A stretch of 40,491 nucleotides of DNA from Gemmatimonadota bacterium. Lineage in GTDB: Bacteria; Gemmatimonadota; Gemmatimonadetes; Longimicrobiales; Gaopeijiaceae. Below are positions 28,801-32,396 of this stretch, in pieces. Position 1 is the first letter of the stretch; the number at the start of each line of letters is the position of its first letter. Below the pieces are notes generated by a model. It searched no databases and was not told the DNA's origin. It saw only the letters and a list, made by a program, of their open reading frames with translations. The stretch spans positions 1 through 40,491 of the forward strand of contig PXFI01000254.1 in the NCBI GenBank assembly GCA_003564295.1. Reading direction: 5' to 3'. Position numbers and translations under genes: made by a program.

Positions 28801-30734
28801 CTCCCCGTTACGACGTCATCGTCATCGGCGGAGGCCATGCAGGCGTGGAGGCTGCTGCCGCGTCCGCCCGGTTGGGATGCAGGACGCTGCTGCTGACGCC
28901 TGATCTGTCCCGCCTGGGTCAGTTGAGCTGCAATCCGGCCATTGGGGGCGTTGCCAAGGGGATCGTGGTTCGGGAGGTGGACGCCCTGGGGGGACTGCTG
29001 GGGCGGGCCGCGGACGCCGCCCGGATCCATTTCCGGATGTTGAATCGTTCGAAGGGGCCGGCGGTCTGGGGGCCCCGGGCCCAATGCGACAGGGGCCTCT
29101 ACCCCCGCATGGTGAGGCAGGCTCTCGAGGAATTGGAGGGATTGGAACTCTTCCAGGAGATGGTGACGAGGGTGGAGTTGGGGGGGGAGGAGGGGTTTGG
29201 GGTGGAGACCCTCGGGGGGCTTCGCTTTCAGGGGAAGGCGGTGGTGGTGACCACGGGGACGTTCCTGAGGGGAAGAATCCATGTGGGGACTGGCACCGGG
29301 ATCTCAGGGGGGCGGGCGGGCGAAGCCCCGTCCGTGGAGCTGGCGGAGGCGTTGGAGGGGCTCGGGCTGGAGATGGCCCGATTCAAGACGGGGACGCCTC
29401 CCCGCGTGGACGGCCGGACGGTGGATTTCGCCAGACTGAAGTTGCAGCCGGGGGACGGAGAGAGCTTTCGGTTCAGCCTCTACAGCCGGGAAGCGTCGCT
29501 GCCGGAGAAGCCCTGTTGGACCACTTGGACCGGAGAAGGGCTCAAGAAGGTGGTTCAGGAGAACCTCCAGCGAAGCGCTCTCTACGGTGGAGTGATCTCG
29601 GGAAGAGGGCCTCGGTATTGTCCTTCCATCGAGGACAAGGTCGTCCGGTTTCCGGAGGCGGCGGGGCATCAGGTCTTCTTGGAGCCGGAGGGGCTGGAAA
29701 CCAGCGAGCTCTATGTGAATGGGCTCTCTACCTCTCTGCCGGCCGACGTACAGGAGGTCCTCCTGCGGACGGTCCCGGGGCTGGAGGAAGTGCGTATGAC
29801 GAAGGTGGGATATGCCATCGAGTACGACTACTTCCCTCCTCACCAACTCCAGAGCACCCTGGAGGTGAAGGGGATGCCCGGACTGTTTCTGGCGGGACAG
29901 GTTAATGGGACGACGGGCTATGAAGAGGCTGCGGGGCAAGGGCTGGTGGCCGGGGCCAATGCGGCTCTGAAGGTGCAAGCCAGACGACCTTTCGTGCTGG
30001 AGCGGGACCAGGCCTACATCGGGGTCCTCATCGACGACCTGGTCACCAAGGGTGTGGACGAACCCTATCGCCTCTTCACCTCCCGGGCCGAGTTTCGTGT
30101 GCTTTTGAGACAGGACAACGCAGCAAGCCGCCTGGGGCCCCTGGCCCGGGACCTTGGGCTTCTGACCTTCCGCCAGGAGAGAGCCTTGAAGGAACGGCTG
30201 GCCCTGGAAGAGACCGTGCGAGTGTGGTTCCGAGATACGTCCCTCTCGCCTGAAGTGGCGAACCAGGTGTTGGGGGAAGGAGCCGGCGAGCATGTCTCCG
30301 AGGCGACCCGGGCCGTGGAGCTTCTGAAGCGTCCCGGGGTGGGAGCAGAACGATTGGCGGAGGCCGGGGGGGGGCTGGTTGAGGCGGAGGGCATGAGGGA
30401 TGCCATGGTCGCCGTGGAGGTGGAGGTGAAGTACCAGGGATATGTGGCAAGGGAGGTGGAGCGGGCCCGGAGACTCCGGGAACAAGCCGACTTCCAGCTC
30501 CACCAGGACCTCCCCTACCGCCAGTTTGTCACGCTGTCCATGGAAGCCCGGGAAAAGCTGGAGCGCATCCGCCCCGGAAGCCTGGCCCAGGCAGGAAGAA
30601 TCCCCGGCGTATCCCCCGCAGACCTCCAGAATCTCATGATGGAGGTGAGGAGGTGGAAGAAGGACGGGCAGCCACGGCCCACCCTCTCCTCATCACCCGC
30701 CTCACCCGGGCACTCGGAGCGGAATGGAGAATAG
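28797..30734 (+). CDS. mnmG: tRNA uridine 5-carboxymethylaminomethyl modification enzyme MnmG (GidA)
   Basis: FAD-dependent partner of MnmE in U34 modification. The 645-residue protein opens with the dinucleotide motif VIVIGGGHAGVEAA, then LSCNPAIGGVAKG, VDALGG, MLNRSKGPAVWGPRAQ, FKTGTPPR, a YCPSIEDK segment, the C-terminal NGTTGYEEAAGQGL and SRAEFRVLLRQDNA, and ends with a helical tail region YRQFVTLSMEAREKLERIRP and GVSPADLQNLM. About 20 extra residues follow the usual end. It is coupled to acyP. A strong hairpin lies 22 bases past the stop, probably closing the operon. Confidence 0.97.
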   Translation: MTPRYDVIVIGGGHAGVEAAAASARLGCRTLLLTPDLSRLGQLSCNPAIGGVAKGIVVREVDALGGLLGRAADAARIHFRMLNRSKGPAVWGPRAQCDRGLYPRMVRQALEELEGLELFQEMVTRVELGGEEGFGVETLGGLRFQGKAVVVTTGTFLRGRIHVGTGTGISGGRAGEAPSVELAEALEGLGLEMARFKTGTPPRVDGRTVDFARLKLQPGDGESFRFSLYSREASLPEKPCWTTWTGEGLKKVVQENLQRSALYGGVISGRGPRYCPSIEDKVVRFPEAAGHQVFLEPEGLETSELYVNGLSTSLPADVQEVLLRTVPGLEEVRMTKVGYAIEYDYFPPHQLQSTLEVKGMPGLFLAGQVNGTTGYEEAAGQGLVAGANAALKVQARRPFVLERDQAYIGVLIDDLVTKGVDEPYRLFTSRAEFRVLLRQDNAASRLGPLARDLGLLTFRQERALKERLALEETVRVWFRDTSLSPEVANQVLGEGAGEHVSEATRAVELLKRPGVGAERLAEAGGGLVEAEGMRDAMVAVEVEVKYQGYVAREVERARRLREQADFQLHQDLPYRQFVTLSMEAREKLERIRPGSLAQAGRIPGVSPADLQNLMMEVRRWKKDGQPRPTLSSSPASPGHSERNGE

Positions 30735-30789: not shown

Positions 30790-30860
30790 GCCAGACGGCG
30801 GGACTCGGCGGCGTCCCCGGCAACCTGTATGCACTTGCCTAAAGATGCAACGCGGAAACC

Positions 30861-30905
30861 TCGACAGTCGGTTGACACGAGCCTGGTGGGGATGCGAAGT
30901 TGACA
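30861..30905. promoter_or_regulatory. TTGACA-type repeats before the CarH-like gene (candidate operator)
   Basis: TCGACA (30861-30866), TTGACA (30872-30877) and TTGACA (30900-30905) lie just before the start at 30908. The first two are spaced by 11 bases, the repeat period of operators described for CarH-type regulators, which usually cover a -35 element. No good -10 follows at 16-18 bases, so the promoter is unclear and the operator call is speculative. Confidence 0.35.
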
Positions 30906-30907
30906 AC

Positions 30908-31846
30908 ATGAATGACGAACGCTCCGATCTCGCCAGGCATCCCATCAGGGTGGTTTCCCGCAGAACCGGGTTGACCCCTGCCGTCCTCCGTGCGTGGGAG
31001 ATGCGTTATGGGGTCGTGGTGCCCCAACGGAGCGCCGGTGGTCAGCGTCTCTACTCGGACGAGGATGTCCGGAGGCTCGGTCTCCTGCGCCGGGCCGTGG
31101 AGGGAGGAAGGACCATCAGCCAGGTTGCGAACCTCTCGATGGAGGCGCTGGAGGGGTTGGTGCAGGAAGATGCGGCTGGGCGAGTGGGGCCGAGCTTTGT
31201 GGGTCCCCCCCAGAGTTCCCAAGCCCTCGAGACCCTGGCCCTGGCCGAGAAAGCCGTCAACGAGCTTGATGGCCCGAGGCTGGAGCGAATCCTGAGACGA
31301 AGCTCCATGGCTCTGCCCATCCACACCGTCCTGGAGGGAGTCGTGGTGCCTTTGCTGGAATCCATAGGTGTCTCGTGGTGCGAGGAGCGATTCGGACCGG
31401 GGCATGAACATCTGGCCACCGTACAGATACGGCGTTTCCTGGAATGGCTGCTCCACACAGTGGGCGACACGGAGGGCGCGCCGGTGATGGTCACTGCCAC
31501 GCCATCGGGGGAGCGCCACGAGCTAGGCGCCCTGCTCTCGGCGGTGAGCGGTGGGGACGAGGGGTGGCGAGCCGTGTTTCTTGGTCCCGATCTTCCTGCT
31601 GATGAGATCGCGCTGGCGGCCCAACGGTTGGATGCGCAGGTGGTGGGGATCTCGTCGGTGGACGAGGGGGCGGCGGGGTCGTTGATTCTTGAGGTCGAGG
31701 GGTTAAGAAGTCGGCTACCCGGGGAAGTGCACCTGATTCTGGGTGGTCCTCAGGCTGTCAAGAGGAAGCTGGTCCTGGAGGAGAAAGGGGTGGAGGTGCT
31801 GGACTCCCAGGAAGAGCTCCGGAAGCGGTTGAGGACGCTTCAGTAG
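30908..31846 (+). CDS. CarH-like MerR-type regulator with cobalamin-binding domain
   Basis: Probably a light- or B12-responsive repressor. The 312-residue protein has an N-terminal MerR helix-turn-helix (VVSRRTGLTPAVLRAWEMRYG, GGQRLYSDEDVRRL, residues 14-57), a helical bundle with the adenosylcobalamin cap motif W-x9-E-H (Trp157, Glu167, His168), and a C-terminal B12-binding Rossmann domain with E-x-H-x-x-G (lower-ligand His204), ISSVDEGA and LILGGPQA. Thermus CarH has His directly after the cap Trp (its light-state ligand); here it is Cys158. No ribosome site precedes ATG 30908; an in-frame ATG at 30845 exists. It lies between mnmG and the parS/parAB locus; no carotenoid or photolyase gene is in the window. 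Confidence 0.88.
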   Translation: MNDERSDLARHPIRVVSRRTGLTPAVLRAWEMRYGVVVPQRSAGGQRLYSDEDVRRLGLLRRAVEGGRTISQVANLSMEALEGLVQEDAAGRVGPSFVGPPQSSQALETLALAEKAVNELDGPRLERILRRSSMALPIHTVLEGVVVPLLESIGVSWCEERFGPGHEHLATVQIRRFLEWLLHTVGDTEGAPVMVTATPSGERHELGALLSAVSGGDEGWRAVFLGPDLPADEIALAAQRLDAQVVGISSVDEGAAGSLILEVEGLRSRLPGEVHLILGGPQAVKRKLVLEEKGVEVLDSQEELRKRLRTLQ

Positions 31847-31872: not shown

Positions 31873-31890
31873 GTGTTTCACGTGAAACAC
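31873..31890. promoter_or_regulatory. parS: parS centromere site
   Basis: GTGTTTCACGTGAAACAC is an 18-bp perfect palindrome containing the exact 16-bp bacterial parS consensus (31874-31889). It lies between two convergent genes, about 0.8 kb before parA and 1.6 kb before parB, whose product would load here as a CTP-dependent clamp. Only one exact copy was seen in the window. Confidence 0.95.
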
Positions 31891-31928: not shown

Positions 31929-32396
31929 TCACAGAGTGTGCCTGTACAGCTCGAAATAGACGGTGGCGGGCTGGGCGATTCCATCCCAGTTGAAATCGTA
32001 CTCCGTGTCGCCGGTGAGAACGAGGATCTCTCCCTCGAACCTCCACGTACCGGTGGTCGGGGGGGCGTCATGTGAGGTCGGGGTAAGGGTGAACTGGTTA
32101 CCCGATACCTCGATCCTTCCCACCTCCGGCAAAGTCTGCCCGAAGGCCTGCAGGGTGGCGGAGTACTGACCGCTTGCCAGGACCGACAGCGTGAAGACCA
32201 CCCCCTCCTTGACCAGGTCCACCGATTGGGAGGGGTTTGCCTTATTGGTCAACACCAGGGCCTGAGCCCTCCAGGTGCCCACCAGGGGAGCGAGCTCCTT
32301 GCCTGCGTCGGTCGTCGTGCCGGAGCACGACACCAGAGTGAGGCAGAGGAGAACCGAACCTGAAGCGCGAAACAGGGATGACTCTAGCCAAGACAT
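31929..32396 (-). CDS. Small lipoprotein, unknown function
   Basis: The 155-residue protein has a signal with hydrophobic residues 13-22 and a lipobox TLVSC (Cys24), so it is lipid-anchored. The mature part begins with a Ser/Thr-rich linker, then LVGTWRAQALVLTN and several amphipathic beta strands (FTLTPTSHDAPPTTGTWRFEGEILVLTG), a pattern resembling lipocalin-like or META-type small barrels; no family is assigned. It faces the CarH-like gene tail-to-tail across parS and diverges from parA. No partner is evident. Confidence 0.7.
   Translation of the reverse strand: MSWLESSLFRASGSVLLCLTLVSCSGTTTDAGKELAPLVGTWRAQALVLTNKANPSQSVDLVKEGVVFTLSVLASGQYSATLQAFGQTLPEVGRIEVSGNQFTLTPTSHDAPPTTGTWRFEGEILVLTGDTEYDFNWDGIAQPATVYFELYRHTL

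Follow-up and report, generated by a model that had tools for sequence, protein, structure and literature searches.

A CarH-like regulator from a Gemmatimonadota bacterium with cysteine at the variable position of the Thermus CarH light-state histidine

The window, meaning the whole 40,491-nucleotide stretch of DNA that was analyzed, carries at 30908..31846 (+ strand) the gene of a CarH-like regulator of 312 amino acids plus a stop codon, delimited by ORF translation and here called P0001. The gene sits between mnmG, which ends at 30734, 174 bp upstream, and parA, an arrangement shared by many relatives. An exact palindrome, TGTTTCACGTGAAACA, which matches the known ParB-binding parS consensus, lies at 31874-31889, just 3′ of the regulator gene and upstream of parA-parB. 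A small lipoprotein-like ORF (31929-32396, - strand), convergent with the regulator gene, is 57% conserved in the nearest relative, L082.

A MerR-type DNA-binding domain was detected at residues 13-76 (30944..31135, + strand; PF13411, 1.3e-14). The helical cap region of the cobalamin-binding domain was placed at residues 104-185 (31217..31462, + strand) from the helices of an AlphaFold2 model (mean pLDDT 90.2), aligned to the CarH four-helix bundle; these helices span residues 104-118, 122-135, 138-158 and 164-185, the long helix stopping at residue 158. A B12-binding Rossmann-like domain was assigned to residues 193-296 (31484..31795, + strand) from a PF02310 match over 194-296 (2e-8) and from the model, where it runs from the strand at 193-197 onward. 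The closest solved relative in a phmmer search of the PDB was Thermus thermophilus CarH (E 3e-30), entries of which also ranked first with Foldseek (5c8f/5c8d; E 1e-17). For the cobalamin domain, the target TM-score against Thermus CarH was 0.82-0.87 with an rmsd of ~2.4 Å in most entries, while full-length P0001 gave TM-scores of 0.5-0.65 and a high rmsd against CarH entries, the relative placement of the domains being different. The NCBIfam CarH equivalog model NF052513 scored P0001 at 137 bits, under its cut-off of 400 bits.

For Thermus CarH, residues 131/132, 141/142 and 175-180 were taken directly from pTT27. The homologue alignment comprised 85 non-redundant sequences, some collected within the order and family to which the window belongs and some from GTDB representative genomes. 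The phmmer alignment of P0001 with Thermus CarH is gap-free from the cap Trp through the Glu-His pair, and the Wx9EH adenosyl-capping motif is intact (W157...E167-H168). Trp157 (31376..31378, + strand) corresponds to Thermus Trp131 and is Trp in 84/85 homologues, and Glu167-His168 (31406..31411, + strand) corresponds to Glu141-His142, with Glu in 85/85 and His in 83/85. The lower axial ligand motif, E202-R-H204-E-L-G207 (31511..31528, + strand), keeps His204 in 83/84 homologues that are not gapped at this column and begins a complete B12 motif (E202-H204-G207, x41, S249-S-V251, x27, G279-G280), the published CarH form of which is ExHx2Gx41SxV/Tx22-27GG (PMC8156234). Both the cap and the lower-ligand motif are thus kept, as the original prediction stated, and binding of adenosylcobalamin (AdoCbl), which it expected, would follow naturally from the motifs of P0001. 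The homologue L162 (Gemmatirosa kalamazoonensis plasmid 2, 4935-5936) retains neither Trp nor Glu in the cap and has no lower His (VHDGSLRAPHRH; GQFEELGA), so it is probably a B12-independent, CarA-like regulator. In the close relative L124 (G085:C219), Trp is replaced by Gly and the lower His by Asp; it could be B12-independent or reflect an assembly error (genome 67% complete).

The upper-face His that stands beside the cap Trp and gives the bis-His feature is absent from P0001. Its place is taken by Cys158 (codon TGC; 31379..31381, + strand), the sole Cys among the 85 homologues, and the gap-free alignment bears out the earlier assignment of this residue to the His132 position. With no His at site 158, the bis-His light state cannot form. 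Two residues from Cys158, a conserved Gly, present in 77/85 homologues, is replaced by Glu160 (31385..31387, + strand; homologue alignment).

Site 158 was occupied by Glu (18), Ala (17), Gln (13), His (10), Arg (7), Ser (6) and Lys (5) in the 85 homologues, the remaining residues being V, I, M, D, G and P (one to few each) and Cys, which occurs once, in the query. His is therefore missing in 75/85, and the entropy of the site, 3.15 bits, is at the 75th percentile of alignment columns. A tree of 83 rows, for which the site-158 column was left out, requires at least 40 changes at the site and at least 7 switches between His and non-His. The view that His is expected here and that Cys158 is an exception did not hold, the site being hypervariable. 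An alignment of homologues had been named as the check on the assignment of Cys158, and in it no other His aligned to the His132 site and Cys was not common elsewhere. His166, present in 25/85 homologues, was considered as a substitute ligand and rejected, nothing further being found in its favor. The same occurrence is the single point for the reading that misalignment accounts for the variation at site 158, with the functional His elsewhere, to which we give a next to negligible probability, as the spacing from Trp157 to Glu167 is constant in the query and its relatives and a published structure-based alignment gives the same variation (PMC11796333).

The query falls in a starred clade of four rows with Glu, Glu, Glu and Cys at site 158, and the starred 28-row clade enclosing it contains zero His at this site. 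Selection of Cys within the clade was ruled out by the tree, on which the nearest relatives have Glu. Because the position varies freely in relatives, Cys alone is no sign of new chemistry, and Cys158, at the end of a helix where the residue varies freely, is most likely a private, lineage-specific and neutral substitution. Thiolatocobalamins are known from small-molecule chemistry, and Cys158 occupies the position at which His132 ligates in Thermus CarH; a Cys158 thiolate might accordingly become a cobalt ligand once the cofactor has been photolysed, so that the light state would be a thiolatocobalamin and its reversibility would differ. We consider this very improbable, given that Cys is unique to the query, that its nearest relatives have Glu at an unconstrained site, that the side chain of Cys, far shorter than that of His, would probably come within reach of cobalt only after a larger helix movement, and that no accompanying change was seen except G160E. 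It is likewise highly doubtful that P0001 is a CarH protein that no longer has its usual regulon and whose sulfur-ligated light state shows redox gating or dark recovery of its own.

The light chemistry of natural proteins without the upper His has been published. At the His132-equivalent site, CtMerR has Arg, SasPcob has Gln and AbDPcob has Tyr (SignatureFinder study, PMC11796333), and green light converts all three to hydroxocobalamin or water-ligated cobalamin (PMC11796333). CtMerR passes from a dark tetramer to a light monomer with OHCbl and no bis-His state, and the structure of its light state under anaerobic conditions shows the cap Glu in contact with cobalt via water (PMC11796333). 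In the H132A variant of Thermus CarH, light yields a hydroxylated Co(III) species and most of the protein remains a tetramer (PMC10442372), so loss of His132 can weaken the response, although reports on H132A conflict, the 2023 paper having seen no disassembly and citing an earlier study that did (PMC10442372). Because the native Arg, Gln and Tyr proteins are photoactive and CtMerR disassembles, a non-bis-His light state is expected for P0001; the CtMerR and H132A data make a missing upper His something already known and compatible with CarH-like behavior. The different photoproduct foreseen in the original prediction survives to this extent, but it would be common to most relatives and not caused by Cys. 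Nothing was found that points to the other two suggestions, a reversible response or sensing of B12 in place of light. The presence of the upper His is not a reliable criterion for the CarH family, since it is missing from 75/85 homologues and from CtMerR.

The operator unit of Thermus CarH is the 11-bp direct repeat nAnnTnnACAn, present as three units (PMC8156234), and TGTnnA lies within the reverse complement of this unit. Upstream of the genes of relatives, 101 TGTnnA pairs at 11-bp spacing were observed, against 1.1 in shuffles, and the operator scorer returned a perfect three-unit site for the upstream region of Thermus carH. Each of 11 relative genomes contained at least one three-unit operator (≤1 mismatch), with sites at the CarH-like promoter in G009, G015, G017, G021, G083 and G084 and before carotenoid-cluster genes in G009, G016, G017 and G021; in G083-G085, a reversed control pattern matched about as often as the real pattern, so the site counts there are not all real. 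At site 158, the proteins of operator-bearing genomes carry Ala, Glu, Arg or Lys, and among genomes with Ala, Glu or Arg there, sites occur at fasciclin (FAS1)/CarH-like promoters and before carotenoid genes. CarH-type operators thus stand beside relatives of many residue classes. Further, 21 non-His loci adjoin crtI, photolyase, cyclopropane synthase or other known light-regulon genes, and from these operators and neighbors the non-His proteins appear to act as CarH-type regulators. In L155, L156, L157 and L138, the TGTnnA arrays at 11-bp spacing precede carotenoid-cluster genes, at the SDR or HTH_17-B12/cruF/GGPPS-crtB cluster.

Divergent FAS1 genes, identified by Pfam, were counted at the 78 homologous loci whose upstream flank was 600 bp or longer and were present at 36/78, comprising 34/68 loci with a non-His protein and 2/10 with a His protein. 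In the 28-row clade of the query, FAS1 is divergent at 20/24 other loci with enough flank. CarH-FAS1 divergent loci include L106, L107, L038, L041, L047, L049-L051, L054-L056, L078, L079 and L166. The pair is spread through Gemmatimonadota and extends to Acidobacteriota, Armatimonadota and one betaproteobacterium, the cultured Eleftheria terrae (MerR/fasciclin locus, L166). No literature linking fasciclin to CarH, LitR or B12 photoreceptors was found in a limited library, which is not proof of novelty. FAS1 genes are among the photo-oxidative or light-induced genes of Rhodobacter sphaeroides and Mycobacterium kansasii, and the algal FAS1 protein AstaP binds carotenoids (PMC10147662), though a cyanobacterial homologue did not. 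From the recurrence of the pair, we hypothesize that the fasciclin is light-controlled and possibly carotenoid-linked.

At the query locus, a FAS1 gene beside P0001 is absent, and a PF02469 (FAS1) profile search of the query genome gave zero matches. No three-unit operator (≤1 mismatch) was found in the 3.34 Mb of the incomplete query assembly (89% complete, 369 contigs), and the region upstream of P0001 gave background-level scores for arrays of three or four units. A two-unit TGTnnA repeat with 11-bp spacing at 30856..30877 (- strand) matches at 8/8 positions and has no third unit; it is a weak candidate for a truncated CarH-type operator (local shuffle p ~0.003, one of many tests). With FAS1 missing, no three-unit operator found and the promoter at background, no target of P0001 was identified.

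These findings bear on the main rival explanation, that P0001 is orphaned or repurposed, having lost FAS1 and canonical operators and now either using two-unit or diverged sites, sensing mainly AdoCbl availability, or drifting. The missing FAS1 partner, the lack of three-unit sites by comparison with all 11 relatives, and R32M and G160E, which fall on conserved columns, all argue for it. On the other hand, these are the sole deviations in 52 conserved columns, a number well within the 0-9 seen across the family, every cofactor residue is kept, and the end branch of the query (0.48) is similar to that of L011 (0.45). The operator comparison is itself weakened, both by the partly unreal counts in G083-G085 and by the state of the assembly, which breaks in a carotenoid cluster, so operators there may be unassembled. 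On balance, we judge an orphan or repurposed role to be unlikely, though well worth weighing.

Profile searches of the query genome with PF00494 and PF04240 gave zero matches. The reading that the genome has no carotenoid genes was dropped, since contig C342 breaks inside the apparent carotenoid cluster, ending ~150 bp past the stop codon of a second B12-HTH regulator and inside an apparent cruF start (by-eye comparison); a crt cluster is probably present and unassembled. This second B12-binding regulator (HTH_17 + B12-binding, with its own Wx9EH; L100:150-1169 in G000:C342, L101 and L102) lies directly upstream of the carotenoid cluster. A photolyase match of 21.8 bits was rejected as below the cut-off, and the longest frame of that locus reads as a PAS/histidine kinase. 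The query genome encodes methylmalonyl-CoA mutases and a fragment of a CobA/CobO-type adenosyltransferase, which make AdoCbl use plausible.

The explanation we favor, and regard as probable, is that P0001 is an AdoCbl-dependent CarH-type repressor with an aquo/hydroxocobalamin light state, in which Cys158 is neutral. In the dark, AdoCbl would be bound base-off through His204 and capped by Trp157, Glu167 and His168, and the AdoCbl-loaded protein would form a tetramer on tandem 11-bp repeats and block the promoter. Green or blue light would cleave the Co-C bond, leaving the cap without its adenosyl partner, and the cobalamin would end as aquo/hydroxocobalamin and not in a bis-His state, possibly with a water-mediated Glu167 contact as in CtMerR. 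The tetramer would then weaken and release the operator. Counting against this explanation are the largely tetrameric H132A variant, the missing FAS1 gene and three-unit operator in the query assembly together with the background score of the promoter, the NF052513 score below the cut-off, and Glu160 in place of a conserved Gly close to Cys158.

The comparison revises what a single structure had led one to expect: the bis-His histidine is a minority feature, and what the family conserves is the cap and the lower ligand. Natural non-His CarH proteins (Ala, Glu, Gln, Arg, Lys, Ser or Cys) with matching operators provide an alignment-guided test set that bears on whether an upper ligand is needed for tetramer disassembly, where the H132A reports disagree. 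Independently of this, the repeated divergent pairing of CarH with FAS1 suggests that the fasciclin is under light control; one protein of this type, the algal AstaP, binds carotenoids (PMC10147662).

Among known systems, Thermus CarH (PDB 5C8D/5C8E/5C8F and 8C31-8C37) shares with P0001 the MerR plus AdoCbl-binding architecture, Wx9EH, the full B12 motif and the fold, and its 11-bp operator repeats are kept by relatives of P0001. Unlike Thermus CarH, P0001 has Cys158 for His132 and Glu160 for the conserved cap Gly, its gene is not beside crtB or photolyase, and a three-unit upstream operator was not found. CtMerR (PDB 8JBS/8JBT; PMC11796333) resembles P0001 in its cobalamin domain, cap signature and non-His residue at the 132 position, but that residue is Arg and not Cys, and the sequence match is only ~34 bits. 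TtCarH H132A (PDB 8C35-8C37; PMC10442372) likewise has no upper His and gives hydroxocobalamin after light; it is an engineered protein that largely fails to dissociate, whereas CtMerR is naturally non-His. The Gemmatimonadota CarH-like regulators (L106, L107, L082, L055, L056 and others) are 37-58% identical to P0001; they have Glu, Ala, Arg, Lys or Gln at site 158 where P0001 has Cys, and mostly possess a divergent FAS1 gene and TGTnnA 11-bp operators, where P0001 has no FAS1 neighbor and only the two-unit repeat upstream.
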